Origin: Halocatena marina
GTDB taxonomy: Archaea; Halobacteriota; Halobacteria; Halobacteriales; Haloarculaceae
Reading direction: 5' to 3'
DNA: 64,000 nucleotides
Assembly: GCF_023276375.1 (NCBI RefSeq)
Contig: NZ_JALLPK010000001.1
Location: 1,860,001 to 1,924,000 of the forward strand
This document shows, piece by piece, positions 8,484-28,256 of the stretch. Position numbers and translations under genes: made by a program. The notes beneath the pieces are model-generated. The model made no database searches. It had not been told where the DNA came from and saw nothing but the letters and a program-made list of their open reading frames with translations. Within the stretch, counting starts at the first letter, position 1. Each line of letters starts with the position of its first letter.

Positions 8484-9061
8484 CGGTGCGCTCCTCGAAA
8501 CACGTTTACGTCCAATTCGTCTGTGCAGGGTACTGCTACGGTTGATACCATTAGATCGGGCTCGGATTGTTCGCACGGTCGTTCAGTTTCCCAGAATGTG
8601 TCGTCCGTCATCGTTCGAATATCTGTGTTTTCGTCTTTGTTCGCTTCATTCTAGCTTTCGTGTATGGCTAATAATTCTATTCCGCGAAATGCAGGGGTGT
8701 TTTTATAATACGAAGAATACGGTAGACGTAGACGTTATATCGTCTATGAGTGGGTGGAGAGAAGAACAAACCACTAGATTCAAAGATACGACTATCCAGA
8801 ACAATTAAATGTAGATGTATGATTGTAATGCCTCGGATAGAAGGGGTTTGAATAGAGGGGAAAGGTCAACAAGCCTCTCACGATACGGACCACTATTCGA
8901 ATAAAAATTATGGATTCTAGATCACATCGAAACGTATGGGATGCTATGTACGATTGACATAGCATTTAAGTGTTCATAGCGTCTACAGTAGAACGGAGGC
9001 AAAGAAGTCGAGATTCATCTCGACCTGTTCAATTCTAAGCACACTCTGCACCCACACCATT
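8484..9061. other. Intergenic region upstream of the TFB gene
   Basis: A 578-bp AT-rich gap between divergent genes. I see no credible gene. A TATA-like element (catttaag, 8963-8970) lies about 95 bp before the TFB start, which would give an untranslated leader of roughly 65 nt. A half-site of the 22-bp dyad described elsewhere (tatgattgtaat) lies near 8818-8829. Confidence 0.5.
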
Positions 9062-10726: not shown

Positions 10727-11494
10727 TTATTGAGTGGAGTGAACAAGATCAATTTCGATCGCATTCGCCGTGTCACGAACCATCTGTGGGACCTCTTGAT
10801 CGAACACCTGACCCTGCATTCGGCTTTTCGGTCCCGAAACGCTGACTGCTCCCAAGGGAACTCCATTTTCGAGAATGGGAGCTGCACAACACTGTAATCC
10901 GTTGAGCCGTTCTTCTCGATCGAAGGCGATGCCGCGCTCGTGGACTGTCTCCAGTTCGGTGTGAAGACGCTCGGGCGTAGTGATTGTGTTTTCGGTCATC
11001 TGTGGTAATCCGTGCTGTTCGACTATCTGCAGTAGGCGGTCGTCGTTGAGATACGCAAGGATTGCTTTTCCAACCGCAGTACAATGAAGATGTTCACGTT
11101 CTTGTACGTATGACTCCAACCGGAGCGCTCGTTCGCTCCGGGAAACTGCGACATAAATACCGAGTCCGTTCTCTTCAACTAGTAGATTCGCCATTTCGCC
11201 GGTCTGTTCAGCCAGCTCGTCGATGTTGCGCTTTGCGATCCGATAGAGTTTCAGACGGTGTTTTGCGTAATCGCCAAAGTAGATAAATCGTAGTCCGAGC
11301 GTGTACTCTTCGTCCTCTTTGACGAGATATCCCTCCTGTTGAAGCGTGCTGAGGTAGTTATGGAGTGTACTTGGTGGCATGTCGAGAACTGAAGCGATAT
11401 CCGCCCCTCGTGCCCCGTCCATGTTCCGCACCTCTTCGAGGATTCGAAACGCCGTTTCGACGGATTTGATCGGGTTTTGTGCTTCTGTCGTCAT
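10727..11494 (-). CDS. IclR-family transcriptional regulator
   Basis: A 255-residue regulator with an N-terminal winged helix (about residues 8-70, including GADIASVLDMPPSTLHNYLSTL) and a C-terminal GAF-like effector domain (about 85-250, with LHCTAVGKAILAYL and GLQCCAAPI), the standard IclR layout. The effector is usually a small organic acid or a breakdown product. The gene lies at the edge of the catabolic cluster 11708-23905 and is divergent from ridA, so it is the likely regulator of that cluster. A TATA element at 11518-11524 is 27 nt before the ATG, implying a leaderless mRNA. Confidence 0.92.
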   Translation of the reverse strand: MTTEAQNPIKSVETAFRILEEVRNMDGARGADIASVLDMPPSTLHNYLSTLQQEGYLVKEDEEYTLGLRFIYFGDYAKHRLKLYRIAKRNIDELAEQTGEMANLLVEENGLGIYVAVSRSERALRLESYVQEREHLHCTAVGKAILAYLNDDRLLQIVEQHGLPQMTENTITTPERLHTELETVHERGIAFDREERLNGLQCCAAPILENGVPLGAVSVSGPKSRMQGQVFDQEVPQMVRDTANAIEIDLVHSTQ

Positions 11495-11517
11495 GTCTAC
11501 CTCGAATATTCCACATT

Positions 11518-11524
11518 ACTTAAT
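11518..11524 (-). promoter_or_regulatory. TATA box of the IclR regulator gene
   Basis: On the minus strand the sequence reads ATTAAGT, centred about 27 nt upstream of the ATG at 11494. This is the distance expected when transcription starts at the start codon. Confidence 0.5.
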
Positions 11525-11707
11525 CGTTATTCATTATCGAGGAAAGAAGCTGTTCAAGGCGTGTGATCAGTCGGTCCAAATCCAAGCGCTGGACAGAGTG
11601 GGTTCCAGACACGAGAGAGGAACGTACCGACGAATTTTAGTGTCTTCTAGAAACATGACTCTGTGACCGGGAGTCATTCACCGATAGCCCGGAACGCTGT
11701 GATCATC

Positions 11708-12094
11708 ATGGTAGAAACACAGAGTATATCGACGCCAGAAGCACCACAGAATGACAATCCGTATTCGCAGGGAGTCATCGTCGACGGTCTACTATTCGTA
11801 TCTGGATTTGGACCGGTTTCGCCAGAGACGATGGAGACAGTAAACGGAGATATCGGCACACAGACCAGCCGTGTGATCGAAAATCTGCAGGCAGTAGTCG
11901 AAGAAGCTGGCGGAAGCCTGGCTGACGTCGTAAAGACGACGGTCTACGTGACGGACATGGCGGATTATGATCAGGTAAACGAGACCTATGGTGAGTATTT
12001 TGACGAGGATCCACCTGCACGGGTCTGTATCGAAGCCGCGCGTCTCCCTGACAACGTCAGCGTCGAAATTGACGCAATCGTCGCCATCGAATAG
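11708..12094 (+). CDS. RidA family protein (enamine/imine deaminase)
   Basis: A 128-residue YjgF/YER057c/UK114 protein. The family signatures are visible: NPYSQGVIVDGLLFVSG near the N terminus and a conserved Arg in PPARVCIEAARLP near the C terminus, which binds the carboxylate of 2-imino acids. It hydrolyses reactive enamine/imine intermediates released by PLP enzymes. The ATG at 11708 was chosen, because the 15 residues upstream have no family match. The cluster contains a threonine-dehydratase-type enzyme and two aminotransferases, so a detoxifying or direct catabolic role fits. Confidence 0.9.
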   Translation: MVETQSISTPEAPQNDNPYSQGVIVDGLLFVSGFGPVSPETMETVNGDIGTQTSRVIENLQAVVEEAGGSLADVVKTTVYVTDMADYDQVNETYGEYFDEDPPARVCIEAARLPDNVSVEIDAIVAIE

Positions 12095-12128
12095 ACTGCC
12101 GTTCGAGAAGAGCCGAGCTGAAGACGAC

Positions 12129-13499
12129 TTAGTCGCTTCGCTCAGCAATTGCTTCCGTGACGATATCGAGCGCTATTTCGGCCTGTGATCGTGTGAGCAC
12201 GAGCGGTGGGAGCAGTCGGAGAACGTTCCCATATCGACCCGCGGTCCAGACGAGGACACCGCGTTCGTAACAGTACTGCTGAATTTCATCGACGAGATCC
12301 GTCGCGGGGTCGCCGTTCTCATCAACGAACTCTGCACCGATAAAGAGACCTTTTCCACGTACCTCCCCGAGTTGCTTGCTCTGGTCGGCGGCTTCGCGGA
12401 GCCGCGAGCGGATGTACGTTCCGAGATCACGAGCGTGCGAGAGCAGATTCTGATCCTGAATGTACTCGATTGCCCGACAGCCCGCACGCATAGCGACAAC
12501 GTGTCCCCGATAGGTGCCAGCGTGTGCACCCTCGCCCCACGTGTCGAGATCCTCGTGATACATGGTCGCCGAGAGAGGAAGTCCGATACCGCCCAACGCT
12601 TTCGCCATCGTCATCACATCGGGTGTCGTCTCGTACCACTCGCTCGCCCACCACTCCCCAGTTCGACCAAATCCGCTCTGGATCTCATCGACGATCAGTG
12701 TGAGTCCGTTGTCTTCTGTGATCTCCTTGAGACCAGGGAGGAATCCTTCTGGAGGCGTTATGACACCGCCCTCCCCTTGGATCGGTTCGACAACGATTCC
12801 GGCGGGATTGGCGACGCCGCTGTATGGATCCTCGACGATTGCCCGAACCTCATCCAACGCATCGACCACGGCGTCGGCTTCTGTTTTGTCCTGTCCGAAT
12901 GGATACGGATACGGAGCGTGAACGATATCCGGCAACAGCGGGGTGTACTCCTTTTTGAACGATTTGTTCGAGGTGAGGCTCATCGCACCCGAGGTCGGAC
13001 CGTGATATGCACCACGGAAGGCCACAAATCCGTGGCCATTCCCGTTGTATTTGGCGAGCTTCATCGACGCCTCGATTGCGTCACTTCCCGTCGGACCGCC
13101 GAACACGACCCGATTGTTTCCCGACAGAGAGCCGGGGGCGATTTTATCGAGCTTTTCGAGGAGTTCGATCCGGGGCTCTGTCGGGAAATCAATCGTATGG
13201 GTGATCTTGTCCACCTGCTCGTGAACAGCCTCGGTGACGTACGGATTCGAGTGTCCGACGTTGAGAACGCCGATTCCCCCGAACATGTCGATGAAGGTGT
13301 TTCCATCGACATCGCGGACTGTCGCACCGAGTCCCTCCTCGAACGCGATTGGGATGTCGTTTGGATACGCTACGGCGCTGCTATCCAGACGATTTTGTTG
13401 TTTGAGCAGCCGTTTCGTCTTCGGTCCCGGAACAGTCTCAACCGATGGTGCATCGTCATAATGTATCTGGTCGTATTCGTGCGCTGGCTCTATAGCCAT
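12129..13499 (-). CDS. Class III aminotransferase, diaminobutyrate transaminase (DoeD/EctB)-like
   Basis: A 456-residue fold-type I PLP enzyme. Cofactor and substrate motifs: [29 protein letters not shown], the Asp in [16 protein letters not shown] and the Schiff-base Lys in MTMAKALGG. The FGGPTGSDA stretch resembles diaminobutyrate-2-oxoglutarate transaminases more than acetylornithine or GABA transaminases, in my judgement. The ATG at 13499 ([10 protein letters not shown]) was chosen over an upstream in-frame one at 13553. It would move the gamma-amino group of L-2,4-diaminobutyrate to give aspartate semialdehyde. It is divergent from the aldehyde dehydrogenase gene, 88 bp away, which would finish that step. 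Confidence 0.85.
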
Positions 13500-13587
13500 G
13501 GCTGCCCTACGAACATCTCTCACAAAAAAGTGCGCATTGGACTGACAGACCAATGTTCGTCGAAGCAGCTCGTGCGAGGATACCTTG

Positions 13588-14976
13588 ATGGTGGAGGAGA
13601 ATGATCATTCCAGTATGGAGGTCATCAATCCAGCGACTGGCGAAGAGACCGAATCGTACGAAGAAGATGACTGGGCTGAGATCGACACAGCGCTCGACCG
13701 TGCGGTGGATACCTTCGAGGACTGGCGACAGCGATCTGTGAGAGAGCGCGAGCAGTTCCTTGTCGACCTCGCTGACGTCATTCGTGATGAGAAACACCAC
13801 TACGCCGAACTCATGACGAGAGAGATGGGCAAACCCATCTCACAGGCAATCGCGGAGATTGAAAAGTGCGCGTGGCTTTGTGACCACTACGCTTCGCACG
13901 CGGGCACGTATTTGCAAGAAGAACAACACCCGAGTCCACCGGGAACGAGCGTCAAGACGGTTCACGATCCCCTCGGTCCCGTACTCGCGGTGATGCCCTG
14001 GAACTTCCCCTTCTGGCAAGCGCTTCGGTTCTCAGTCCCCTACATAACGGCGGGGAACGTAGGGCTGCTCAAGCACGCTTCGAACGTTCCGGGCTGTGCC
14101 CTCGCGATCGAGGAACTCTACGAAAAGGCCGGCTATCCAGAGGGCGTCTTCCAGACGTTGGTCGTTGGCTCGGACCCTATCGACGACATTCTCGCAGACG
14201 AACGCATTCGGGCAGCAACACTGACCGGAAGCGGCCCAGCGGGTCGAGCTGTTGCCTCGAAAGCGGGCGAGCAGCTCAAGAAAACCGTTCTCGAACTCGG
14301 TGGAAGCGATCCGTTCGTCGTGTTAGAGGATGCCGACCTCGATGCAGCGGTCGAAACTGGCACGCGGGCACGCAACCAAAACGGTGGGCAGTCGTGTATC
14401 GCTGCAAAGCGTTTCATCGTCGTCGACGACGTCTACGACGAGTATATCGACCGATTCACCGAGGAATTCGAGGCGCTTACCATCGGCGATCCAATGGATG
14501 AGGAGACGGACGTTGGGCCACAGGCCCGCCGCGATCTGATGGAAGGCCTGCACGAACAGGTCATAGCAAGCGTTGATGCCGGTGCCACCGCTATCACCGG
14601 TGGTGAACCGCTCGACCGCGAGGGGGCCTACTACCCGCCGACGATTCTCGCAGACGTACCGGAAAACTGTCCTGCCAGCGACGAAGAGCTGTTCGGTCCC
14701 GTTGCAGCTGTTTTCCGAGTTGCTGATGAATCAGCGGCCATCGAGATGGCCAACGACACGCAGTTCGGTCTCGGTGCCAGTGTCTGGACAGAAGACCGAG
14801 ATCGCGGTGAGCGCGTCGCGCGCGAAATCGATGCTGGCTGCGTGTACGTCAACCAGCTTGTGAAGTCGGATCCTCGTGTCCCATTCGGCGGCGTCAAAGA
14901 ATCGGGATACGGTCGCGAGCTATCGGGGATCGGTATCAAAGAGTTCGTCAATCGGAAGACGGTGTGGGTCGAATAA
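13588..14976 (+). CDS. NAD(P)-dependent aldehyde dehydrogenase, succinate/aspartate semialdehyde type (DoeC-like)
   Basis: A 462-residue aldehyde dehydrogenase with MPWNFPFWQ, the cofactor motif [11 protein letters not shown], the catalytic Glu in [16 protein letters not shown] and the catalytic Cys in [12 protein letters not shown]. The shape and length fit the succinate-semialdehyde dehydrogenase group to which DoeC (aspartate-semialdehyde to aspartate) also belongs. The ATG at 13588 gives MVEENDHSS; a second at 13615 gives [10 protein letters not shown], where homology usually begins. It sits back to back with the DoeD-like aminotransferase, so the two probably share a control region at 13500-13587. 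Confidence 0.9.
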
Positions 14977-15280
14977 CGGCACCACCTTTCTGACTGAAGC
15001 AGATCTTCGGTCTGACGATCTCGAACGATGCTGCTGATGGCGCAGTATCGCTGTACGGCGACTGAGACCTGATCAGCGCCCAAGGTGTCTGTGCTCGCAT
15101 CACCGTGTGATCACTATCATAAAAAGAGTCTCGAGATTCGAATAGACCGTCTTTGACGATAGTGAATTTGTCTACGTGATGATGGAATGTGCTCTCCACG
15201 AAACAGAGAGAACCGACGCTCAACCGAACACGGCAATCAATCAAAATTGTGCTGTACCGTTTCAACAGGTGCGTGTCTCG
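14977..15280. other. Intergenic gap between convergent genes
   Basis: About 300 bp between the stop codons of the aldehyde dehydrogenase and the D-2-hydroxyacid dehydrogenase. I see no gene or clear structured element. Confidence 0.4.
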
Positions 15281-16285
15281 CTATTCGACGTCCTCCGGAG
15301 TGAATTCGACAGAAGGAGAAAGCACCTGGTTCGTAAGATCACGCGCCACCCCCGTTTCGGCTAACTTTCTAATGTTCTCGATAGCGATGTCAGACATTCT
15401 GGACCAGTGCTTCGGTGTGTGGCCCCCAGTATGTGGCGTGATGAGAACGTTCTGCATGCGCCACAGTGGATGTTCCGACGGGAGTGGTTCGGGATCAGTC
15501 ACATCGAGCGCCGCACCACGGATATCGTTGAACTGCAACGCAGAGACAAGAGCATCGGTCTCGATGATGGGTCCCCGTGCGGCGTTGACGATGACAGCGT
15601 GTGGTGGGAGTGTGGCTAGGGCTGCTTCGTCGATAAGCCCGCGAGTTGTCTCCGATAGCGGACACGTAAGAACGAGATAGTCGGTACGGGAGAGGGCAGC
15701 GTGGACGGCGTCCGGATCGTATCCGTAGACTTCATCGGTCGGACCTCCTTTCGACGGCGTGTATCGAATGCCAATCGTCTCGACGCCGAATCCAGATAGC
15801 CGCTCGACGACTGCGTTTCCAATTGCTCCGAGTCCCACGACAGTGACGGTTTTTCCCGATAGTTCACCCGCTTTGTAATGACGCCATTCGCGTCGCTCTT
15901 TTCTCCGCCATCCTTCATGCAAATTTCGTGAAAACACGAGCATCGATCCAATTGTCTGCTCAGCAATTCCCGGAGCGTGGACACCGCTTGCATTGGTCAC
16001 AGCGATATTCCGTTCTCTGAGGGCATCCAACGGGAGATGACCGACACCAGCAAAAACACAAACAAAGAGATCGAGATTCTCGGCTCGTTCGAGCAGTGCT
16101 TCGTCAATACCGACACCGGTTGCGACGGACACATCAGCGAGAAGGGCCTGCTCCTCTTGTGGCGTCCTCGCAAGCCGAACATTGTGGTCTGGAAGTCGAT
16201 CACGAAGGAGCCGGGCGTATGGTTCCATCGAGAGACCTTCGGTTCCTTCCCGGAGCACAACGATATCTGGACTGGACTTAGTCAT
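15281..16285 (-). CDS. D-2-hydroxyacid dehydrogenase
   Basis: A 334-residue NAD(P)-dependent enzyme that interconverts 2-keto acids and D-2-hydroxy acids. The Rossmann motif is VVGLGAIGNAVVERL. The catalytic residues are visible in order: Arg in VNAARGPIIE, Glu in DPEPLPSEHPLW and His in ITPHTGGHT. The length is usual for the family. Similar proteins are often labelled phosphoglycerate dehydrogenase or glyoxylate reductase, but there is no ACT domain, so serine synthesis is unlikely. In this cluster it could act on a hydroxylated intermediate (for example from hydroxyectoine), which is speculation. Confidence 0.9.
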   Translation of the reverse strand: MTKSSPDIVVLREGTEGLSMEPYARLLRDRLPDHNVRLARTPQEEQALLADVSVATGVGIDEALLERAENLDLFVCVFAGVGHLPLDALRERNIAVTNASGVHAPGIAEQTIGSMLVFSRNLHEGWRRKERREWRHYKAGELSGKTVTVVGLGAIGNAVVERLSGFGVETIGIRYTPSKGGPTDEVYGYDPDAVHAALSRTDYLVLTCPLSETTRGLIDEAALATLPPHAVIVNAARGPIIETDALVSALQFNDIRGAALDVTDPEPLPSEHPLWRMQNVLITPHTGGHTPKHWSRMSDIAIENIRKLAETGVARDLTNQVLSPSVEFTPEDVE

Positions 16286-16463
16286 GACGTACTCTCCTCA
16301 TTGGTAGCCGTACGCGGATACTGATAGACCGAACATCTTAAACTTTGACGTGCGAGCAAATCGATTGTCAGAGATCTCGACGTTCGATTTTCGTCGGTAC
16401 TCTACTAATGCAGCGGAAGAACCATTTATGAACACCGAGACGTATTGTTGGGTGTATTATCGT

Positions 16464-17762
16464 ATGTCGAGCTCAATACGGAATCGGCTTCGATCGCTTC
16501 GTCGCCAGTTCCACCGGTATCCAGAACCAGCATGGTGTGAGTTTCGCACGACGAGCCTCCTCGTCGAACTGCTGGAGGAGATTGGTGTCGACGAACTGGC
16601 CATCGGAACAGACGCACTCGTCTCTGAGGAACGAATGGCCGTCCCATCTGAGGAGGAAATCGAGTTGTGGTATCAGCGAGCGCACGATACTGGAGCACGG
16701 GCAGACGTTCTCGAACAGACGGCAGGCGGTCACACGGGGGTCGTTGCGAAACTCACTGGAAACGAGGATGAACCGACGGGGCCTCACGTTGGCCTCCGTG
16801 TCGACATCGACGGCCTGTTCATCGAGGAATCGACGAGTGATAACCACGTCCCCGCAACGGAAGGGTTCCGATCAGAACACGAGGAAACGATGCACGCCTG
16901 TGGTCACGACGCACACATGACGATCGGGTTAGGGGTCATCGAGGCGATCCAACAGAGCGACTTTGACGGGACGTTGACCGTTTTCTTTCAGCCCGCAGAG
17001 GAAGTGTCCGGCGGCGGTAAGCCGATGGCTGAAAGCGACCACATGGACGCCATCGAGCATCTCTTTGCGGTTCACGTCGGTCTCGATCATCCGACAGGCA
17101 CGGTCGTCGGGGGAATCGTAAAGCCGCTGGCGATGAGCCACATCACCGCCCAGTTTACGGGAACGCCTGCCCACGCTGGGAAGTCACCGAACGAGGGGAA
17201 CAATGCGATGCAAGCAATGGCGAGCGCGATTCAAAACGTCTACGCGATCTCTCGCCACGAAGACGGAATGACGCGGGTCAATATCGGTCGTGCAGAGTGT
17301 GGCACAGCGAGCAACATCATCGCAGAGGAGGCCACGATTCACGGGGAAGTCAGAGGGGAAACGACCGAGCTCATGGAGTACATGCGCGGGGAATGCTTTC
17401 AGACGCTTGACGCAGCCGCAACGATGCACGGCTGTTCGGTCGATCCGACTGTCATCAGTGAATCTCCCAGAGCTGACAGCGATGAGACGCTTGCAACGCT
17501 CGTTCGTGACGTTGCATCACTCCACGAGCACGTCGATACACCAGTGGTGTCCGCGGAATTCGGAGCGAGTGAAGACGCGACCTTTCTCATGAATGCTGTA
17601 CAGCGGGCTGGTGGGTACGCGACCTACGCAATCATCGGGACAGACCATCCGACGAGCCATCATACGCCGACGTTCGACGTGGACGAGCAGAGCATCGAAA
17701 TTGGTGTTGACGTACTTTCGGAATCGATTCAGCGAATTGAAGAGGTACGCTCTGACGCATGA
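16464..17762 (+). CDS. M20-family amidohydrolase (AbgA / N-acyl amino acid hydrolase type)
   Basis: A 432-residue metallo-amidohydrolase. The metal site is visible as MHACGHDAHM and PAEEVSGGGKPMA, with a lid domain in between and a C-terminal metal His in SHHTPTFDV. It carries the insertion after the first helices (EEIELWYQRAHDTGA) seen in the p-aminobenzoyl-glutamate / indole-acetyl-aspartate hydrolase branch. Such enzymes cleave N-acyl or N-acetyl bonds of amino acids. The ATG at 16464 was chosen for family fit. It overlaps the next gene by 4 bp (ATGA at 17759), so the two are cotranslated. In this cluster it is a candidate N-acetyl-diaminobutyrate deacetylase, since no DoeB/AstE-type gene is present. 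Confidence 0.88.
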   Translation: MSSSIRNRLRSLRRQFHRYPEPAWCEFRTTSLLVELLEEIGVDELAIGTDALVSEERMAVPSEEEIELWYQRAHDTGARADVLEQTAGGHTGVVAKLTGNEDEPTGPHVGLRVDIDGLFIEESTSDNHVPATEGFRSEHEETMHACGHDAHMTIGLGVIEAIQQSDFDGTLTVFFQPAEEVSGGGKPMAESDHMDAIEHLFAVHVGLDHPTGTVVGGIVKPLAMSHITAQFTGTPAHAGKSPNEGNNAMQAMASAIQNVYAISRHEDGMTRVNIGRAECGTASNIIAEEATIHGEVRGETTELMEYMRGECFQTLDAAATMHGCSVDPTVISESPRADSDETLATLVRDVASLHEHVDTPVVSAEFGASEDATFLMNAVQRAGGYATYAIIGTDHPTSHHTPTFDVDEQSIEIGVDVLSESIQRIEEVRSDA

Positions 17763-18979
17763 GATCAGAAACGATCGTCACACCAGTGGAGATTGAAGCG
17801 GCGAACAAACGCATCAGCTCAATTGCTCATCGAACGCCACTCGATCGTTCGACGACGTTTGCACAGATGAGCGACGCTGCTTCGGTTGGACTGAAACTGG
17901 AGAATATGCAGCGGACCGGTTCGTTCAAGATTCGAGGTGCGTACAACATGATGAGCCAGCTTCCAGCCACAAAACGGGAAAACGGAGTTGTCGCATCAAG
18001 TGCGGGAAATCACGCCCAAGGAGTCGCGCTCGCTGGACAGGAACTGGATATCGAAACGACGATCGTCGTGCCTGAAGTGACGCCCGCGGCCAAGATCGCG
18101 GCGACCCGTGGCTATGGTGCGACAGTCCTCGTCGAGGGAGACATCTACGAGGATTCCTATCAGTACGCGATGGATCTCGCCGACCGAGAGAACCGAACAT
18201 TTGTCCACCCGTTCAACGACGAGCAGATCATCGCCGGTCAGGGGACGGTCGGTCTCGAACTCACAGAGCAGTTCCCGGCAGTCGATACGGTACTCGTCGC
18301 AATCGGTGGGGGTGGACTCATTAGCGGTGTCTCTGTAGCGCTCCGGAACCACAACCCGGACGTTCGCGTGATCGGTGTTCAGCCGGAAGGAGCGGCCCAC
18401 GCAGCGCCATCGCTTGAGGCGGATGAAATTCAGGAACTGGAGACCGTCGATACCATCGCGGAAGGAATTGCGGATACGCGGCTCCTCGAAAAGACGTTCA
18501 CGGTCATCCGCGAGACTGTCGACGACGTGGTCAGCGTGACGGATCAAGAGATTGCGACCGCGGTTTCGCTTCTCGCAGAGCGGACGAAAACCATTGCCGA
18601 GGCAGCCGGTGGAGCACCGCTCGCAGCACTACTTTGCGATACAGTTGACGTGCGCGGTGAGAACGTCGCTGTCGTCGTGTCTGGAGGTAACATCAATCTC
18701 ACTGATCACGCCAACCTCGTAGAAACCGGACTGGTACAGCAGAATCGACTTCATCGCGTGCGTCTTGTACTCGATGACTGGGCTGCTTCACTCAGCACTG
18801 TCGTGGACCTCATCGAACAGGAGAACGCAGAGCTCATCGACATCGAGCGCAGACCACAAGCGCCGACGGAACAGCTGAATCGCTGCCCGGTGTTGCTCAC
18901 GCTCGAAGGCAACGGAGCGGACCACTTCGAACGAGTCCTCGACACACTGAACGAGCACGAAGAGATTACGGTAAAGTAA
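17759..18979 (+). CDS. Threonine ammonia-lyase family PLP enzyme with ACT domain (IlvA/TdcB; EutB-like candidate)
   Basis: A 406-residue fold-type II PLP enzyme. The Schiff-base Lys is in GSFKIRGAYNMM, the phosphate-binding Gly loop in IGGGGLISGV, and the C-terminal 70 residues (from RLVLDDWAASLSTVVDLIEQ) are an ACT domain as in biodegradative/regulated threonine dehydratases. The standard reaction turns threonine into 2-oxobutanoate and ammonia through an enamine, which explains RidA nearby. Hydroxyectoine-utilisation clusters of bacteria carry a homologue called EutB, so a related dehydration of a hydroxylated intermediate is possible. It is coupled to the M20 gene by an ATGA overlap. Confidence 0.9.
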   Translation: MRSETIVTPVEIEAANKRISSIAHRTPLDRSTTFAQMSDAASVGLKLENMQRTGSFKIRGAYNMMSQLPATKRENGVVASSAGNHAQGVALAGQELDIETTIVVPEVTPAAKIAATRGYGATVLVEGDIYEDSYQYAMDLADRENRTFVHPFNDEQIIAGQGTVGLELTEQFPAVDTVLVAIGGGGLISGVSVALRNHNPDVRVIGVQPEGAAHAAPSLEADEIQELETVDTIAEGIADTRLLEKTFTVIRETVDDVVSVTDQEIATAVSLLAERTKTIAEAAGGAPLAALLCDTVDVRGENVAVVVSGGNINLTDHANLVETGLVQQNRLHRVRLVLDDWAASLSTVVDLIEQENAELIDIERRPQAPTEQLNRCPVLLTLEGNGADHFERVLDTLNEHEEITVK

Positions 18980-19156
18980 TCCAACGCTACCACGCCGTCT
19001 CAGGTCGTAGGGTGCTACTCACTTCCGTAGTATCAAGAGAACATCAATGTCCATCATATCAGGAGAAATCTCACAGCTTCACGCCACAAATTGTGCTATC
19101 TGCTGATTAGGGATACGGGATGCGTCCATGTACGTTCGGTACACAGCCGATAACAA

Positions 19157-19165
19157 GTTTTAATT
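19157..19165 (+). promoter_or_regulatory. TATA box of the class III aminotransferase gene at 19189
   Basis: The sequence tttttaattt-like stretch (gttttaatt, 19157-19165) is centred about 27 nt before the ATG at 19189. This supports that ATG as both transcription and translation start. Confidence 0.5.
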
Positions 19166-19188
19166 TATTCTGTCGACGTTGGTATTGC

Positions 19189-20532
19189 ATGGATAGGGAC
19201 ACCGCAATCCCAGACACAGCAGCGCTGCCCGGACCTAATGCTCAAGCGTGGATCGATTTTCACTCAGAGTATGCAGCCGCAAGCGAATACTCTCACGAGT
19301 TCGTTTGGGACGTGACGGCTAAGGCGGACGGTCCGTTCGTTACCGATGTTGATGGGAACGTTCTCCTCGATTTTACCTGTCATATTGGCGCTGCGCCACT
19401 CGGGTACAACAACGAGAAAATCATGTCGAAGGTGCGTGAGTTCGATCTCGTCGAACCGACGAAGATTGCGGGACAAGATATGTACTTTGGTATTGGTGGT
19501 GATCCGGAGACAGCCGATATCCCCGGAGCTAGCCATCTCATGGAGAAGCTCGTCGCCATTTCGAGTGACTACGAGATGGACACCGTGTTCCTCTCGAACT
19601 CTGGTGCAGAGGCCGTCGAGAATGCGATGAAAATCACACACGACTACAATCCCACCGCAAAATACGCCTACGCATTCGAGGGAAGCTTCCACGGGCGTAC
19701 GCTTGGAACGCTCTCGCTCACCCATTCAAAGGGTGTGTACACCCGCCATTATCCTGAAATCGCGGGCGTCAAAACGCTCCCGTTCTGTGACTGTGATGAC
19801 AACTGTGAATGCGGTTTCGAGCGATCAGACGGTTCTCAGTTCCGGACTGCGCTCGAACCGGAGGGAGGACATGTCGAACCCGATGAAGTTGCCTTTGTCG
19901 TACTGGAGCCGATTCAGGGTGTGGGTGGCTACCGATTTCCGAACGAAGCGTTCGTCAGCGAAGTCGATGACGTGTGTAAATCGTACGACATCCCACTAAT
20001 CGTCGATGAGATCCAGTCTGGGGTCGGCCGTACAGGGAAGATGTGGGCCTCTGATCACTATCAAATCGAACCCGACGTCATTGCTAGTGCGAAGGGCCTA
20101 CGGGTTGGGGCGACAATTTCTCGTGAGGAGATCTTTCCCTCTGAGAAAAACCGTCTCGGTTCGACGTTCGGCGGCGGGGACCTCCTTGCCTCGATGCAAG
20201 GTGTGTTCACGATCGAGGCTATCGAACAGCACGACTTGCTCGATAATGCGACCGAGCGCGGTCGACAGGCGAAAGAGCTACTCCGTGACAACGCGTCTTC
20301 ACACGTCGAGGACGTGCGCGGTAAGGGGTTGATGCTTGCTGTCGAGGTTGACAGCCAAGACAACCGCGATGCCGTCGTTGCAGCAGCCTTAGAACGCGGC
20401 CTTCTCATTCTTGGCTGCGGTAAGCGCACAATTCGACTACTGCCACCACTGGACGCAACCGAGCGAGAGATCGAGATGGGTATTTCCATTCTCTGTGATG
20501 CACTAGACACCATCACACCGAGGACTCACTAG
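19189..20532 (+). CDS. Class III aminotransferase (haloarchaeal GABA/lysine transaminase-like) with Cys-rich insert
   Basis: A 447-residue PLP enzyme with SNSGAEAVENAMKI, GSFHGRTLGTLSLTHSKG, the Asp in [14 protein letters not shown] and the Schiff-base Lys in IASAKGLRVGA. The family (4-aminobutyrate, lysine, ornithine transaminases) moves a terminal amino group to 2-oxoglutarate. An insert around residues 197-210 reads CDCDDNCECGF, five Cys in eleven residues, which could bind a metal or cluster. The start is supported by a TATA box 27 nt upstream. It lies between the threonine-dehydratase-type gene and the ectoine hydrolase-like gene and may be the cluster's second transaminase (the atf of bacterial ectoine clusters), or serve another amino acid. 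Confidence 0.88.
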   Translation: MDRDTAIPDTAALPGPNAQAWIDFHSEYAAASEYSHEFVWDVTAKADGPFVTDVDGNVLLDFTCHIGAAPLGYNNEKIMSKVREFDLVEPTKIAGQDMYFGIGGDPETADIPGASHLMEKLVAISSDYEMDTVFLSNSGAEAVENAMKITHDYNPTAKYAYAFEGSFHGRTLGTLSLTHSKGVYTRHYPEIAGVKTLPFCDCDDNCECGFERSDGSQFRTALEPEGGHVEPDEVAFVVLEPIQGVGGYRFPNEAFVSEVDDVCKSYDIPLIVDEIQSGVGRTGKMWASDHYQIEPDVIASAKGLRVGATISREEIFPSEKNRLGSTFGGGDLLASMQGVFTIEAIEQHDLLDNATERGRQAKELLRDNASSHVEDVRGKGLMLAVEVDSQDNRDAVVAAALERGLLILGCGKRTIRLLPPLDATEREIEMGISILCDALDTITPRTH

Positions 20533-20679
20533 CATGGCAGTTGAAAATGCAAAACCAGCATTCGTCGAACGCTGAACGCTGCTTTCCGAACCAAACCGCG
20601 TGAGACTGCTGTGACCAACGCCCGTTCGACGATTCGCGTGCGATAGGTGTCTCTGTCGGTCGTGAGTCGTCTGTTGCGG

Positions 20680-21858
20680 TCAAGCGACAAACAGACGGCG
20701 CGGGAATTCAGAGAGCGGTTCGGCTCCCGTCCCAGTAACACAGAACGTCTCGCTGAGTTCGACACCGAAGTCATCGAACCACAGCCCCGGAATCATATGG
20801 AACGTCATATCCGTTTCGAGTACGGTTTCGTCACCGGGACGGATGCTCGCGGTGTGTTCGCCCCAATCGGGCGGATACCCGAGACCCATAGAGTAGCCAA
20901 TACGGTCCTCTTTTTCGACATCGTATTTTGCGATGGTATCTCGCCACACTTTCTCGACAGCTTCGCAGGTGACGCCGGGCTCGACCGCATCCAGTGCAGC
21001 CTCAATTCCCTCGACGACGATGTCTGCGGTTTCCTCAACTGCTGCTGGCGGATCACCGACGAATGTCGTTCGGGCGAGTGGCGAGTGATACCGGTGTCGA
21101 CAGCCCGATAGTTCGATGATCACTGGGTCGCCACGCTCGAACTGACGATCGGTCCACGTAAGATGCGGTGTGCCGGTGTTGTCACCCGAAGGCATCAACG
21201 GGACAATAGACGGATAGTCTCCGCCGTACTCGTCCGTTCCGTCGATGAGAGCTGTGTAGATCGATCGAGCCGCCTCGTACTCTGGAACTCCCTCGGAGAT
21301 AGCGTTGAGCCCCGCCTGCATTGCATTCTCGGAGATCCGGGCGGCTTGGCGCATGTATTCGAGTTCCTGTTCAGACTTCTTTACGCGCACCCAGTTGACG
21401 AGGAGCGTCGCATCTTCGAACTCGGCCACAGGAAGGTTCTTTTGTAGACGTATGTAGGACTTCGCTGTGAAATAGTAGGCATCCATCTCAAGACCGACGC
21501 GACCGTCGTCGACGCCAAGATCCTCCAATACCGCGGCGAAGAAGTCCATCGGATGGAGATCAACCGGAGAGTGTACGTGGTCGTCGCTGTAGGCTCGAAT
21601 GCTCTCCTCGGAAAGACGGGTCGTCGCCCGTGCTCCATTGGCGTCCATCTCGCGGCCCACCCAGATCGGTTCGTCTCGGTTCCGGGTCACCACAATCCCT
21701 TGATGGACGTAGAATGACCAGCCATCGTAGCCGGTGAGGTAGTTCATGTTAGCCGGATCGCTGACGATGATTGCGTCCAGTCCTTCTTCTGCCATCCGTT
21801 CTTTCGTTCGGGCAATGCGCCGGTCGTACTCGCTGCTGTCGAACACCGCCTGAGACAT
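20680..21858 (-). CDS. doeA: Ectoine hydrolase-like protein (DoeA/EutD, M24 peptidase family)
   Basis: A 392-residue pita-bread-fold protein with the creatinase N-terminal domain (about 1-150) and the M24 domain (about 160-390). Several stretches match what I know of ectoine hydrolase: LTGYDGWSFYVHQ, DANGAR, the LGYPPDWGEHTASIRPGD segment, FHMIPGLW and the C-terminal EFPRRLFV. The two Asp metal ligands of true prolidases are not kept (IIELSG and HSPLART instead), as expected for the metal-independent creatinase/ectoine hydrolase branch. It would open ectoine to N-acetyl-L-2,4-diaminobutyrate. A TATA box lies at 21892-21898 and a GGTGA ribosome-binding motif sits just upstream of the ATG. It is divergent from the BCCT transporter unit. 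Confidence 0.83.
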   Translation of the reverse strand: MSQAVFDSSEYDRRIARTKERMAEEGLDAIIVSDPANMNYLTGYDGWSFYVHQGIVVTRNRDEPIWVGREMDANGARATTRLSEESIRAYSDDHVHSPVDLHPMDFFAAVLEDLGVDDGRVGLEMDAYYFTAKSYIRLQKNLPVAEFEDATLLVNWVRVKKSEQELEYMRQAARISENAMQAGLNAISEGVPEYEAARSIYTALIDGTDEYGGDYPSIVPLMPSGDNTGTPHLTWTDRQFERGDPVIIELSGCRHRYHSPLARTTFVGDPPAAVEETADIVVEGIEAALDAVEPGVTCEAVEKVWRDTIAKYDVEKEDRIGYSMGLGYPPDWGEHTASIRPGDETVLETDMTFHMIPGLWFDDFGVELSETFCVTGTGAEPLSEFPRRLFVA

Positions 21859-21891
21859 GCTGAATTCTCACCTGAAAATGTGCGAAGACAG

Positions 21892-21898
21892 TATAAAT
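21892..21898 (-). promoter_or_regulatory. TATA box of the doeA-like gene
   Basis: The minus strand reads ATTTATA about 37 nt upstream of the ATG at 21858. With initiation about 27 nt downstream this gives a short leader that contains the GGTGA motif (21867-21872). Confidence 0.5.
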
Positions 21899-22133
21899 GT
21901 TTTTTGTACATGAAACAACAATACATCGCTATAAAATAACAAATAGTACAATTTCATATTCGCTGTCCGGGCCCATCTCTCCAGTTCAGTGCTGCTCAGC
22001 AATTACTCTGAAGAAAAATCCGTCTCATCATGTGTCAACATGCGATTCTGAAAAGCACAACATTTAATACCACCTAACCCAAGCGAAAGGACGAGTGGTA
22101 CCGTATAGCATAATTAACGGAACTGAAACACAC

Positions 22134-22283
22134 ATGACTCAGACACAAAACGGAGAGTACGGATCCGGAGAGGCGTTGCAAGAACAACGACGAATTCAAG
22201 GCACCGATACAGACAGATCACTCGTTTCGCCGGGAGCAGCGTATCGGGTGAGAACGACACGTTCCACAGCACAGTATCAATGA
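22134..22283 (+). CDS. Small protein upstream of, and overlapping, the BCCT transporter gene
   Basis: A 49-residue ORF (start MTQTQNGEYGSGEAL) whose stop codon overlaps the transporter start as ATGA (22280-22283). It is hydrophilic with a Gln/Arg-rich middle, has no motif that I recognise and no membrane segment. A TATA-like ataattaac (22109-22117) lies about 20 nt before the ATG. The overlap suggests translational coupling with the transporter, so it may be a true small protein or only a leader peptide. Codon composition gives weak support. Confidence 0.4.
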   Translation: MTQTQNGEYGSGEALQEQRRIQGTDTDRSLVSPGAAYRVRTTRSTAQYQ

Positions 22284-23905
22284 GTCAATCGAACGATCAA
22301 GGCCCGCTTGAAGAATTCGTCGAAGAAATCGAACCGGTGATCTTTGCGTTCGGTGCGGGGATCACGCTGTTGTTCGTCGCCATCTTTGCGTACAAACCTG
22401 AGACAGCAGGAGACATCGTCACGAGAGCAAATGACCTCGTACTTGCGCACTTCAATTGGGCGTTCCTTGTCATCATGCTCTTTTTCGTCCTCTTTCTCGG
22501 ATTCCTCATCTTTGGTCCGTGGGGAAATCTCCGGTTTGGTGACGAGCCACCGGAATTCAGCTATTTTTCGTACTTTACGATGATGTACTCTGCGGGTCTT
22601 GCGGCCGGAATCGTCTTCTGGGGACCGGCTGAATCACTCATTCATTACGCATCCGTTCCGCCGCTGTACGACGTACCAGCGAAGTCAACAGCCGCAATGC
22701 CGATCGCGCTGCAGTACTCGCTGTTCCACTGGGGACTCACCCAGTGGTCCTGCTTCACCGTGATGGGAATCGGTATCGGATACTACGTCTACAACCACGA
22801 TGCACCCCTCCGCGTCTCCTCGGTACTCACTCCATTCATCGGTGCCGACAGCATCAAAGATAGTTACTGGGCAACGATCATCGACATCCTCGCGGTGTTC
22901 GCTACGCTCGGTGGCGTTGCAACTTCGCTCGGATTCATTGGGAGCCAGTTTCTCACCGGCCTTAACTACAGATGGGGGATTGAACTGAACGACCTCTTGA
23001 CCATCGGAGTCATCACAGGCATGACGGTCATTTTCACCGCTTCGTTGGTTTTAGGGATTGACCGCGGAATCCGGCGGCTCTCGAACTTCAATATGACATT
23101 GTTCGGCGTGTTGATGATCGGCACACTCATCGTTGGGCCGACGTGGGCCATTCTTCAAGTCGGCACGCAGGCGATGGCTGGATTCATCGGCGACTTTTTC
23201 AAAATGAGCTTGTTCACCCACGTTGCCGGAGGCGGCGAATGGGCGAACACGTGGACCGTCTTTTACTGGGCGTGGCCACTCGCGTGGTCGCCGTTCGCAG
23301 GCCTATTTATCGCGCGGATCTCTCGTGGTCGGAGTGTCCGCGAGGTTGCCTTTACTGGTATTGGTGCAACCGCAATGGCGACGATTCCGTGGTTTATTGT
23401 TCTCGGAGGGGCCGGTCTCCAGTTGCAAAACAGCGGTGCTGCAAATCTATTGGGGCCGATCCAAAACCCAAGTCTCGGTGAATCTGTCTCCGGGTACGTG
23501 CTCTTCGGTGCTCTGCCCTTCGGATCGATTTTCCTCTTTTTCTTTTTACTCCTCGTGATGACCTTCTTTGTCACGTCCGCCGATTCATCGACGCTTGCCG
23601 TCTCGATGATGGTTACGGGCGGGAAAGAAGAGCCCTCTGCAGGCAACCGCATCTTCTGGGGAGTGCTGCAGGGTTTGGTCGCCTCTATCCTCATGGTTAT
23701 CGGCGGTGTGGATGCACTCCAGATGGCTGCGATCATCACCGGAGGACCGTTTGCAATCGTCGGGCTCGTCGCCTGTGTCGGCCTAATACGGTCGTTTCGG
23801 AAGAAGCATGGAAATCTTCTCCTTCAAGAGGAGACAGTCATCTTCGGGTGGTCGGAAAAGGAAACGACGGAGCACCAACAGAAAGTTGAACCAAACGATG
23901 ATTGA
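22280..23905 (+). CDS. BCCT-family compatible-solute transporter
   Basis: A 541-residue secondary carrier with about 12 membrane segments of the betaine/carnitine/choline transporter family. Family signatures: LFHWGLTQWSCFTVMGIGIGY (segment 4 region) and WTVFYWAWPLAWSPFAGLFIARISRGRSVREV (segment 8 region). In the second, a Pro stands where family members usually have a Trp of the substrate-binding aromatic box, so the substrate may differ from glycine betaine. The family takes up betaine, choline, carnitine or ectoines with Na+ or H+. The cluster context (ectoine hydrolase-like gene divergent next door) points to ectoine or hydroxyectoine. Confidence 0.92.
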   Translation: MSQSNDQGPLEEFVEEIEPVIFAFGAGITLLFVAIFAYKPETAGDIVTRANDLVLAHFNWAFLVIMLFFVLFLGFLIFGPWGNLRFGDEPPEFSYFSYFTMMYSAGLAAGIVFWGPAESLIHYASVPPLYDVPAKSTAAMPIALQYSLFHWGLTQWSCFTVMGIGIGYYVYNHDAPLRVSSVLTPFIGADSIKDSYWATIIDILAVFATLGGVATSLGFIGSQFLTGLNYRWGIELNDLLTIGVITGMTVIFTASLVLGIDRGIRRLSNFNMTLFGVLMIGTLIVGPTWAILQVGTQAMAGFIGDFFKMSLFTHVAGGGEWANTWTVFYWAWPLAWSPFAGLFIARISRGRSVREVAFTGIGATAMATIPWFIVLGGAGLQLQNSGAANLLGPIQNPSLGESVSGYVLFGALPFGSIFLFFFLLLVMTFFVTSADSSTLAVSMMVTGGKEEPSAGNRIFWGVLQGLVASILMVIGGVDALQMAAIITGGPFAIVGLVACVGLIRSFRKKHGNLLLQEETVIFGWSEKETTEHQQKVEPNDD

Positions 23906-24706: not shown

Positions 24707-25120
24707 TCAGCTGTACTGATCGATAACGTCGATGAGTGCTGCTTTGTTCTGCATCCCGACGAGTTGTTCTACTGGCTCTCCATCGGCAAACAAGATCAGT
24801 GTGGGGACCCCTCGAACACTGAATTCGGTAGCAAGGCGCTGATTAGCGTCGATGTCGACTTTGGCGACTGCTGCATCGGTTTCGGCGGCGATTTCTTCAA
24901 CAGTTGGCTCGATCATCTTACATGGACCGCACCAATCTGCGTAGAAATCAACGAGGACAACCCTGTGCGTTTCTGTGGCGTCCGTCAGCTGCGATTGCCC
25001 CTCGATGTGGATCGGATCGGAGGGGCTGTCAGTAGTGCCGACACCGTCGTTCTCGTGTGTTTCCTGTAGCTCCGCGAGTTTCTGCTCGCGGATCTCATCG
25101 ATTGATCGATTCTCAGTCAT
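24707..25120 (-). CDS. Thioredoxin
   Basis: A 137-residue protein with a helical, charged N-terminal extension of about 50 residues followed by a complete thioredoxin fold. The redox motif is DFYADWCGPCKMIEP; the cis-Pro loop is RGVPTLILFADG. It would reduce disulfides in the cytosol with a thioredoxin reductase encoded elsewhere. The extension has no signal peptide. The ATG at 25120 was chosen; a GTG one codon earlier is possible. It ends convergently toward the BCCT gene and starts 51 bp after the gamma-glutamyltransferase stop, on the same strand. Confidence 0.93.
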   Translation of the reverse strand: MTENRSIDEIREQKLAELQETHENDGVGTTDSPSDPIHIEGQSQLTDATETHRVVLVDFYADWCGPCKMIEPTVEEIAAETDAAVAKVDIDANQRLATEFSVRGVPTLILFADGEPVEQLVGMQNKAALIDVIDQYS

Positions 25121-25173
25121 CACGTTCTGGTATGTGGTGGACGATCTTAATTCTTCAGCACAGGAGCAATCCT

Positions 25174-27048
25174 CTACAGCCCGACGACCGATCCATCGCG
25201 GCGACCGTCGGCCACCCCGAGATACGCACCGTCCTGTGCGAAAATCGCTTGAGCGTTCCCGAGCGGCATCGGCTCGTCGGCAAACTCGTGGCCGAGTGCT
25301 TGAAGCTGCTGGCGGGCCTCTGATGGCAATCCAGGTTCCCAGATCACTTCCGGGTCAACGTCGTCGTAGAGACGTGGCTCTGCAATGGCCTCTGCGGGAC
25401 TCATGCCGAACTCCGCGACGTTGAGGATGATTTGTGCAACTGTCGTGATGATGGTCTTTCCACCGGGGGAGCCGACCGTCATGAACGGCGCTCCGTCCTT
25501 GAAGACGATCGTCGGACTTGTGCTGCTGAGCGGTCGTTTTGTGGGCTCGACTTCGTTCGGTCCACCCGGTTTTGCATCGAAATCCGTCAGTTCGTTGTTC
25601 AGCATGAATCCGTGGTCGGGAACCATGATCCCCGTTCCGAAGAACTGTTCGATAGTGCTTGTCCACGAGACGAGATTCCCCTCGCTGTCTGCGGTAGTGA
25701 AGTGCGTTGTCTGACCGAGATCGCTCTGTAGCGAACTCGCTGCACGCTTTTGATTCGTGCGTTCACTTGGTGCCGTGTTGCTCTCATTCTGGGCAACGAT
25801 TCGGTACGGTTGACCGGGTTGGTGGTCCCACGGATTCCCTGGTTCGACGCCAGCAAGATCAGCGCTCTCGAAGTCGATCAGGCTGCGTCGTTGATCGACG
25901 TACTCCTCGTCTAGCAATCCTTGCCACGGTACGTCGACGAGCGCTTTATCGCCCATGTACTCGCCGCGGTCGGCGTACGCCAGATGGAACGCTTCGATCA
26001 GTGCGTGATAGGTCTCTGGCGATCGTCGGCCGTACTGACGGAGATCGAGCTTCTCAAGCAGTTGAAGGATCTGCGCAATCGTCAATCCACCCGAGCTCGG
26101 CAGTGACTGTGTCCGAACGGTCAGATCTCCATACTCCCCAACGTCCGGGTGATCGATCGTGACGTTGTATCTAGCGAGATCCTTCTCAGTCATGCTGCCG
26201 CCGTGTTTCTGTACGACGCCAGCGGTTGCGGAGGCGATTTCACCGCCGTAAAACGCACCGATCCCCTTATTTTTGATCTGCCGGAACGTCTCGGCTAAGT
26301 CTTCTTGGACCAGCGTCTCACCCGCTTTGAGCGGAGTCCCACCGGGAGTGAACACCGACCGAGCAGCGTCGTTGAATTTGCTCTGTTCCTCTTGAATCAC
26401 GCTTGCGAGGTGTTCATCAACTGTGACGGGGCAAGCACCACTTGCCAGTTCGATTCCCGGTGTAATCAGCTTTGAGAGTTCCTGCGTTCCGAACCGCTTG
26501 AGAGCTACATCGCACGCTCTGAGAGTTCCTGGCACTCCGACCGCTTCACCGAGCGTGATCCGCTTTTCAAACGGGATCGGTTCACCTTGATCGTCCAGAA
26601 ACATATCCGCTGTTGCCCCGAGAGGTGCCCGCTCACGGTTGTCAATAGCGTAGAGTTCGTCCTCTTCGGCGACGTAGACGAGCATAAATCCGCCACCACC
26701 GATTCCCGAGCCGTGGGGTTGTGTTACGTTCAGTGCGAACTGAACCGCGACCGCAGCGTCGATCGCATTTCCACCATTCTGGAGCACGTCGACTCCGACC
26801 GCAGTTGCTTGGGGATGGACAGTCGAGACCATTCCTTCCGAACTCCGAGCCGTGTCCGGTGTTCGCCGCCGTTCATCATTGTTGCCATCCTCCGTAGACG
26901 CTCGGACGGCAGAGACGGGTATCGCACTCGCGCCAAGCGCAGCGGCCGATCCTTTTAGAAACGTCCGTCGATACGTGGTCGCCGTTCGTTCGTCCACCGT
27001 CAATTGATCCTCGTGTCTGTCCTCGCCACCGTCCTCGTTTGCTGTCAT
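25174..27048 (-). CDS. ggt: Gamma-glutamyltransferase, Tat-exported
   Basis: A 624-residue Ntn-hydrolase precursor. A twin-arginine signal is seen near residues 20-50 (RRTFLKGSAAALGASAIPVSA), so it is exported folded. The family segments follow: MVSTVHPQATAVGVDVLQNGGNAIDAAVAV, GIGGGGFMLVY, SSGGLTIAQ, and the self-cleavage site with nucleophile Thr in GQTTHFTTADSEGN, about two thirds along, then TIEQFFGTG and GSPGGKTII. It transfers or hydrolyses gamma-glutamyl groups of peptides such as gamma-glutamylcysteine, the haloarchaeal thiol. The ATG at 27048 leads into the signal; a TATA box (27075-27083) lies about 30 nt upstream. Confidence 0.93.
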   Translation of the reverse strand: MTANEDGGEDRHEDQLTVDERTATTYRRTFLKGSAAALGASAIPVSAVRASTEDGNNDERRRTPDTARSSEGMVSTVHPQATAVGVDVLQNGGNAIDAAVAVQFALNVTQPHGSGIGGGGFMLVYVAEEDELYAIDNRERAPLGATADMFLDDQGEPIPFEKRITLGEAVGVPGTLRACDVALKRFGTQELSKLITPGIELASGACPVTVDEHLASVIQEEQSKFNDAARSVFTPGGTPLKAGETLVQEDLAETFRQIKNKGIGAFYGGEIASATAGVVQKHGGSMTEKDLARYNVTIDHPDVGEYGDLTVRTQSLPSSGGLTIAQILQLLEKLDLRQYGRRSPETYHALIEAFHLAYADRGEYMGDKALVDVPWQGLLDEEYVDQRRSLIDFESADLAGVEPGNPWDHQPGQPYRIVAQNESNTAPSERTNQKRAASSLQSDLGQTTHFTTADSEGNLVSWTSTIEQFFGTGIMVPDHGFMLNNELTDFDAKPGGPNEVEPTKRPLSSTSPTIVFKDGAPFMTVGSPGGKTIITTVAQIILNVAEFGMSPAEAIAEPRLYDDVDPEVIWEPGLPSEARQQLQALGHEFADEPMPLGNAQAIFAQDGAYLGVADGRRDGSVVGL

Positions 27049-27074
27049 GACATGTTCCTGTCTCACTTCCACAC

Positions 27075-27083
27075 ATTAAATCT
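27075..27083 (-). promoter_or_regulatory. TATA box of the gamma-glutamyltransferase gene
   Basis: The minus strand reads AGATTTAAT, about 30 nt upstream of the ATG at 27048. Confidence 0.45.
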
Positions 27084-27280
27084 ATCGGAGTTCTAAATAC
27101 GAAGTTTATGGGGCTATTCTCCCGGTATACCAGACGGTATAGTTATAATACTATTAAATTGATATTTTCTAATTTTCTATGTTATTTGCTCAGAATAGAG
27201 TACTCTCGGAGTGGAGGAAGCATGCGTGAAGTCATTTCCGGTGGGTACACCAGAGACCATCTTATTGCGGGTTAAACAAG

Positions 27281-27288
27281 ATATAATA
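27281..27288 (+). promoter_or_regulatory. TATA box of the DapA-type aldolase gene
   Basis: atataata at 27281-27288 is centred 27 nt before the ATG at 27312, predicting a leaderless transcript. Confidence 0.5.
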
Positions 27289-28244: not shown

Positions 28245-28256
28245 AGTTCTGTGTGC

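Follow-up and report, generated by a model that had tools for sequence, protein, structure and literature searches.

A haloarchaeal gene cluster around an M24 protein of the ectoine hydrolase group probably serves the uptake and catabolism of ectoine

Ectoine is a protective solute, and many salt-tolerant bacteria produce ectoines. Whether haloarchaea consume them is the question raised by a stretch of 64,000 nucleotides from Halocatena marina (contig NZ_JALLPK010000001.1, positions 1,860,001 to 1,924,000, or G000:C1:1860001-1924000 in our numbering; hereafter the window). Between a gene for an IclR-family regulator and one for a BCCT-family transporter (10727-23905) it carries a cluster that includes an M24 protein resembling the ectoine hydrolases EutD and DoeA. 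According to a 2018 review, ectoine consumers are confined to the Proteobacteria (PMC5924519). The original prediction, made from the DNA of the window, read the cluster as ectoine catabolism and took an archaeal version to be unreported. On this last point it had been anticipated, as putative EutD clusters had been described for Bacillota, Actinomycetota and Halobacteria in a paper of April 2026 that calls for experiments; for the Halobacteria its text gives more than 100 EutD hits, with aminopeptidase, aminotransferase and BCCT genes nearby (PMC13188858). No other report of haloarchaeal ectoine use was recognised among the titles and abstract openings of the open-licence literature. The analysis set out here, which works from sequence comparisons, suggests that the cluster probably mediates the uptake and catabolism of ectoine, and that hydroxyectoine is probably consumed through it as well.

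The argument begins with the M24 protein (20680-21858, minus strand). In a search of the Protein Data Bank (PDB) its best relative is the ectoine hydrolase of Halomonas elongata (6twk and 6twj, 380 bits), followed by a prolidase at 109 bits and creatinase at 78 bits; it scores 235 bits with the model for DoeA2 (cut-off 575) and 110 bits with the archaeal prolidase model. For a tree, 98 M24 proteins were reduced to 70 by dropping 28 rows, all of them close haloarchaeal copies. In it the haloarchaeal EutD copies group (92/97, a support below the program's star) with two proteins from Bacillota, five annotated proteobacterial DoeA proteins, five unannotated proteobacterial homologues and five rhizobial M24 proteins, while six of the ten other M24 proteins of the host genome, together with one from Halorussus, stand apart (100/100). 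A constraint joining the window protein to those six paralogues and the Halorussus protein was rejected by the approximately unbiased (AU) test (p 0.001), and monophyly of the haloarchaeal EutD copies was neither supported nor rejected by the tree tests. Among 132 columns that are invariant in 11 DoeA-type sequences (that of Halomonas and the five annotated and five unannotated homologues), the window protein matches 102, including all of TGYDGWSFY and YPPDWGE; the M24 paralogues of the host are largely without these two motifs, and the rhizobial M24 proteins preserve both less well. The original prediction had said beforehand that grouping with prolidases or creatinases would count against it, and the protein instead falls with DoeA and apart from the M24 proteins of its own genome, with named prolidases and creatinases compared by score only.

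If the protein were simply a prolidase or Xaa-Pro peptidase that happens to lie among amino-acid genes, this would accord with Pfam, which by itself gives just M24, and with a plasmid gene table that names 16 of 18 haloarchaeal copies 'M24 family metallopeptidase' and leaves the other two unannotated. Against this stand the gap in scores with the solved proteins, the tree with its AU test and the recurrent linkage described below, and the prolidase reading, which we reject on these grounds, is hardly credible.

Matches to EutD at E<=1e-60 occur in 103 of 292 haloarchaeal genomes (106 matches) and also in 18 haloarchaeal plasmid records. Neighbouring genes were compared at 67 haloarchaeal EutD loci, made up of 25 loci from a 31-locus set (the other six being bacterial), 40 of the 106 genome matches and two plasmid records, and comprising 65 distinct EutD sequences. 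Counted within about 10 kb of these 65, with numbers that shift with the identity cut-off and the handling of overlaps, the commonest neighbours are an M20 amidohydrolase gene (57 loci), a D-2-hydroxyacid dehydrogenase (D2HDH) gene (57), a dehydratase gene at the position of EutB (45), the class III omega-aminotransferase gene AT2 (45) and BCCT (39). Rarer are GdhB, a glutamate dehydrogenase (27), another class III omega-aminotransferase, DAT (24), an FAD/Fe-S oxidase (24), IclR (7) and an aldehyde dehydrogenase of the succinate-semialdehyde type, SSADH (4). Genes were assigned by reference-based matching, as long overlapping frames in GC-rich DNA spoil unsupervised clustering. The comparison of gene order in related haloarchaea that the original prediction had called for finds the same genes recurring around EutD, in varying orders.

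Three of these partners also follow EutD from genome to genome. Of the 103 genomes with EutD, 94 have a close copy of M20 (E<=2e-159), 95 one of AT2 (E<=2e-190) and 81 one of the EutB-position dehydratase (E<=1e-125), and none of the three is found at these limits in any of the 189 genomes without EutD. The limits for M20 and AT2 were picked after viewing the match lists, with no clear gap below either (the borderline genomes are G108 for M20, at 1.1e-159, and G094 for AT2, at 1.2e-190); at looser limits, chosen by eye, M20 is in 102 genomes with and 13 without EutD (1e-150), and AT2 in 99 and three, respectively (1e-185). For the dehydratase the limit was fixed after a look at 11 genomes, in which other dehydratases are at most 48% identical to the EutB-position protein, and before the full scan, where the weakest accepted match was 1.9e-142. 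The Fisher test applied to these co-occurrences treats genomes as independent of shared ancestry. Because the same genes recur around EutD and track it across genomes, the cluster is more than a chance assembly.

Since the M24 protein groups with DoeA and has the Halomonas ectoine hydrolase as its best solved relative, the cluster is best read as ectoine catabolism, and from the gene families, this grouping and the linkage across genomes we infer both the substrate and every reaction step. In the proposed route BCCT would bring the solute in, the EutD-group protein would cleave the ectoine ring to N-acetyl-diaminobutyrate, and the M20 amidohydrolase, standing in for EutE, would strip the acetate. 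One or both of the omega-aminotransferases (DAT and/or AT2) would then convert diaminobutyrate (DABA) to aspartate semialdehyde, and the SSADH-type enzyme would convert this to aspartate. The dehydratase would act on a 3-hydroxy amino acid that stems from hydroxyectoine (hydroxy-DABA or hydroxyaspartate), and D2HDH on some 2-oxo or 2-hydroxyacid intermediate. The BCCT gene (22280-23905, plus strand), noted in the original prediction and confirmed by a match to PF02028, scores 424 bits with the glycine betaine BCCT model (cut-off 650) and is likely to encode the uptake system; it is the sole transporter gene among the open reading frames of the cluster, a Pfam and NCBIfam scan of which found no ectoine-type TRAP or ABC transporter.

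For the second step, the original picture of a bacterial-type ectoine cluster does not hold as it does for the DoeA-group M24 protein: the enzyme is not EutE, and a candidate replacement, M20, had gone unnoticed. The model for EutE/DoeB (TIGR02994) has no match at E<=1e-40 in any of the 292 haloarchaeal genomes, the host included; as a control, it was positive in all four plasmid records annotated with doeB, and silent in two plasmids with M24 and M20 genes (plasmid sequence alone). EutE, EutA and EutC were each found at none of the 65 haloarchaeal EutD loci at 35% identity or above, the weak matches being to EutE at L108 (27%) and to EutC at L085 (31%). As EutE is without a match in the 292 genomes, M20 is its likely replacement. 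This protein (16350-17762, plus strand) is of the aminobenzoyl-glutamate-utilisation type (TIGR01891, 240 bits, over the cut-off of 154), has as its closest solved relative 3io1, named aminobenzoyl-glutamate utilization protein, and retains the His, Cys and Glu positions common to other M20 proteins, which we take to be metal ligands. To judge from its linkage to EutD, it likely deacetylates N-acetyl-DABA. M24 and M20 genes with no EutE in the stretch are also found in bacteria, beside the transporter genes ehuABCD on the S. meliloti M270 plasmid, whose M24 protein sits inside the proteobacterial DoeA group (100/100), beside EutB in Rhizobium CCGE532, and with EutB and a cyclodeaminase in Priestia.

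The following steps involve enzymes whose families, a diaminobutyrate-type transaminase adjoining a semialdehyde dehydrogenase and a second class III aminotransferase, had been correctly named from the outset, as the Pfam and NCBIfam profiles bear out. DAT (12129-13553, minus strand; PF00202), of the ornithine/diaminobutyrate/gamma-aminobutyrate type and the candidate for Atf/DoeD, scores 417 bits with PRK05769 (acetylornithine aminotransferase family, cut-off 552) and 408 bits with PRK06938 (diaminobutyrate transaminase, cut-off 671), and SSADH (13585-14976, plus strand), the candidate for Ssd/DoeC, scores 591 bits with PRK09406 (cut-off 730); the two genes form a divergent pair, and both proteins belong to the right families with no equivalog cut-off reached. 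The best solved match of DAT and also of AT2 (19120-20532, plus strand; PF00202) is 7vno, named 4-aminobutyrate aminotransferase, and SSADH matches solved succinate-semialdehyde dehydrogenases, so that passage from DABA through aspartate semialdehyde to aspartate, which is the bacterial route (PMC5924519), would fit these proteins. A gene for a RidA/L-PSP family protein (11663-12094, plus strand; PF01042, 127 bits) completes this part of the cluster; homologues occur at 10 of the 67 haloarchaeal EutD loci, eight of which also have DAT, and the gene adjoins DAT at all four of those eight for which coordinates were at hand. The RidA/L-PSP protein is presumably of the enamine/imine deaminase type. 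Some EutD clusters in whose stretch a class III aminotransferase gene is missing carry a cystathionine-gamma-synthase-family gene (L117:10231-11409, L110:12228-13427, L064 and L091:8066-9226; the carriers are a Klebsiella plasmid, Priestia, Salipaludibacillus and one haloarchaeon), the product of which might act on DABA directly, for instance as a gamma-lyase.

Consumption of hydroxyectoine would involve the dehydratase (17759-18979, plus strand), whose gene overlaps that of M20, on the same strand, by four bases. It is a pyridoxal phosphate enzyme of the threonine ammonia-lyase type (TIGR01127, 425 bits, over the cut-off of 379) and scores 232 and 260 bits with the EutB models TIGR02991 and NF005680, both below the cut-off of 413. 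Its earlier description as a threonine-dehydratase-type protein therefore stands, whereas 'EutB type' does not by the NCBI models, and we do not adopt EutB as its family name. Dehydration of either hydroxy-DABA or 3-hydroxyaspartate would fit such an enzyme; the published EutABC scheme for hydroxyectoine was itself not yet biochemically tested as of the 2018 review (PMC5924519). Possession of the dedicated dehydratase may mark which species use hydroxyectoine.

Several observations weigh against this interpretation. With TIGR02993 (ectoine hydrolase DoeA/EutD) the M24 protein reaches 469 bits, below the equivalog cut-off of 613, and it is placed for this reason in the wider EutD group and not as an equivalog; 30 of the 132 DoeA-invariant columns are changed in it, with, for example, H in place of R after YPPDWGE and T in place of A before PHLTW. 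Three rhizobial M24 proteins branch with DoeA (90/92), closer than the haloarchaeal copies, and two of these lie in clusters without other ectoine genes, which weakens the transfer of function from tree position alone. The M20 protein is not DoeB2 (107.5 bits with NF038260, cut-off 550, and a long branch of its own in an M20 tree that left out about half of the haloarchaeal loci), so that the second step rests on linkage. The best match to EutC (TIGR02992) in the host genome reaches 159 bits, the cut-off being 472 and no control genome scoring above it either, SSADH lies near EutD at only four of the 65 loci, and D2HDH has no place in the known ectoine pathway.

The score below the DoeA cut-off and the substitutions inside conserved DoeA stretches would be expected if the M24 protein cleaved some other cyclic amidine or an N-acylated amino acid, the cluster then being a general N-acyl amino acid pathway. 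Clusters in which M24 and M20 genes have unlike partners do exist in Bradyrhizobium, Rhizobium and Agrobacterium, and some of their M24 proteins, at 46-48% identity to that of the window, are nearer to DoeA in the tree. Yet the haloarchaeal copies keep DoeA-specific columns at which the nearest outgroup M24 proteins and several rhizobial ones differ; even the three rhizobial proteins that branch with DoeA retain fewer of the invariant columns than the haloarchaeal copies do. In addition, a Priestia relative, 56% identical, sits with EutB and a cyclodeaminase, and we consider a different substrate quite improbable. On an Agrobacterium plasmid (L122:1031-6853) two M24 genes lie near those for a hydroxyacid dehydrogenase and a Zn-dependent hydrolase, an arrangement that resembles the haloarchaeal trio, but its M24 is distant (32% identical). 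Two haloarchaeal genomes contain an additional, divergent form of EutD, about 55% identical (L085:9376-10860 and L086:9416-10714), which adjoins genes for a DAO-type FAD oxidoreductase and an IclR regulator, and not the usual partners; its substrate may differ.

With ectoine retained as the probable substrate, D2HDH (15281-16285, minus strand; PF02826/PF00389; best solved relative 5mh5, a D-2-hydroxyacid dehydrogenase) raises the possibility that the carbon leaves by another way. Tightly linked and part of the core, it may be the sign of a route that runs through a 2-hydroxyacid to malate. In such an arm, 4-amino-2-oxobutanoate would arise from DABA by alpha-transamination, or from hydroxy-DABA by the dehydratase helped by RidA; D2HDH would reduce it to D-4-amino-2-hydroxybutanoate, an omega-aminotransferase would yield malate semialdehyde and SSADH D-malate, which at other loci the FAD/Fe-S oxidase would carry on to oxaloacetate. 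Across the 65 distinct EutD loci, D2HDH and M20 are always either both there (57) or both missing (8), though among the eight L060 ends early at a contig edge. In three genomes where EutD is located elsewhere (G017, G061 and G098; for the latter two, which are drafts, on a different contig) D2HDH, M20 and the EutB-position gene are still neighbours. Such an arm would also make use of the two omega-aminotransferases, with RidA beside one of them, and of the FAD/Fe-S oxidase, which is found at 24 of the 65 loci and shares 22 of those with the EutB-position gene (45 of 65 overall). Conversely, it needs a reduction that the known route avoids, and the FAD/Fe-S oxidase is absent from the window cluster. 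D2HDH homologues at E<=1e-110 are present in 234 of the 292 genomes, making the gene less telling genome-wide. Of ten other genomes checked, nine are without a close copy of the dehydratase (the tenth, G104, has it), and all nine keep D2HDH beside EutD, so D2HDH cannot serve the dehydratase branch only and is disfavoured as a partner of that enzyme alone. An exit of ectoine carbon through this arm is therefore judged unlikely, entry by either reaction and the enzyme assignments included. We are similarly doubtful of the wider idea that haloarchaea run a distinct ectoine pathway, in which EutD and M20 are followed by a 2-oxo/D-2-hydroxyacid arm to malate or oxaloacetate in replacement of the route by which bacteria reach aspartate through EutE and EutABC.

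The FAD/Fe-S oxidase lies near D2HDH and combines the domains FAD_binding_4, FAD-oxidase_C, Fer4_8 and CCG, as at L114:14622-17930; a gene of 1,080 residues beside some EutD loci, suspected to be this oxidase, proved to be a ribonucleotide reductase.

At the other edge of the cluster, the IclR gene (10727-11494, minus strand) is present as predicted (Pfam IclR_C and HTH_IclR; best NCBIfam model BhcR, 174 bits, cut-off 350), but its link to the cluster is weak, with IclR at only seven of 65 EutD loci, and it is not accepted as an established regulator. A promoter and terminator scan with bacterial models gave no excess over shuffled sequence. All genes named in the original prediction are open frames at their given coordinates and, by Pfam and NCBIfam profiles, largely of the families proposed; its list omitted RidA, D2HDH and M20. 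Several annotated gene starts in the cluster are upper bounds: homology of M20 starts at about residue 38 in most matches, and the true start of DAT is probably further in. The assembly has a contamination estimate of 9%; another genome of this species, G277, has each of the five genes for which it was searched (EutD, D2HDH, M20, the dehydratase and AT2) at 100% identity. Elsewhere in the window, positions 1091-8576 hold genes for an acyl-CoA dehydrogenase, an acyl-CoA ligase, a carboxyltransferase, a short-chain dehydrogenase/reductase, a beta-keto acid cleavage enzyme and an enoyl-CoA hydratase, probably a separate acyl-CoA catabolic set, and downstream of BCCT (24707-29769) lie genes for a thioredoxin, a gamma-glutamyltransferase, a dihydrodipicolinate synthase-family protein and a D-threonate-kinase-like protein.

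With the proteobacterial doeABCD and eutABCDE-ssd-atf clusters, as described in PMC5924519 and PMC13188858, the haloarchaeal cluster shares an EutD-group hydrolase, a DABA-type transaminase, a semialdehyde dehydrogenase, a threonine-dehydratase-type protein and a compatible-solute transporter. It differs in that the haloarchaeal loci are without EutE, EutA and EutC at the identity limit given above, with M20 in the place of EutE and D2HDH as a core gene, and in that the window cluster has BCCT in place of a TRAP or ABC transporter and IclR in place of EnuR and AsnC, in a gene order unlike that of any record compared. The DoeA2/DoeB2 type, as on a Tsukamurella plasmid, likewise combines M24, M20, an aminotransferase and SSADH, but there the M24 protein falls in an outgroup and the M20 protein is far from that of the window. 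The Bacillota clusters (pucR-eutBCD-atf and abgB-thrA-adh in the text of PMC13188858) and the Priestia plasmid pBMV_1 have an EutD about 56% identical, M20, no EutE and, by the account of that paper, in some cases BCCT; they differ in an annotated EutB, a cyclodeaminase and a gene for homoserine dehydrogenase, and their M20 protein is on another long branch.

The Halobacteria clusters outlined in 2026 very likely belong to the same family as the one described here, their EutD being more than 55% identical to that of Bacillus salipaludis and accompanied by an aminotransferase, an 'aminopeptidase' and BCCT (PMC13188858). The term 'hydroxyacid dehydrogenase' is absent from the main text of that paper, with which the comparison was made (as distinct from its Figs S10 and S11), whereas D2HDH is core here. 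Should ectoine prove to be the substrate, haloarchaea, as a widespread group with EutD in 103 of 292 sampled genomes, would feed in brines on osmolytes of bacterial origin. Beyond the 2026 prediction, the present analysis tests how the M24 protein groups, finds no EutE while the same model responds in a positive control, and shows that M20, AT2 and the dehydratase occur together with EutD and that M20 and D2HDH go as a pair; these partner genes, with M20 as the putative EutE replacement, D2HDH as a core enzyme and a dedicated dehydratase, make that prediction testable.

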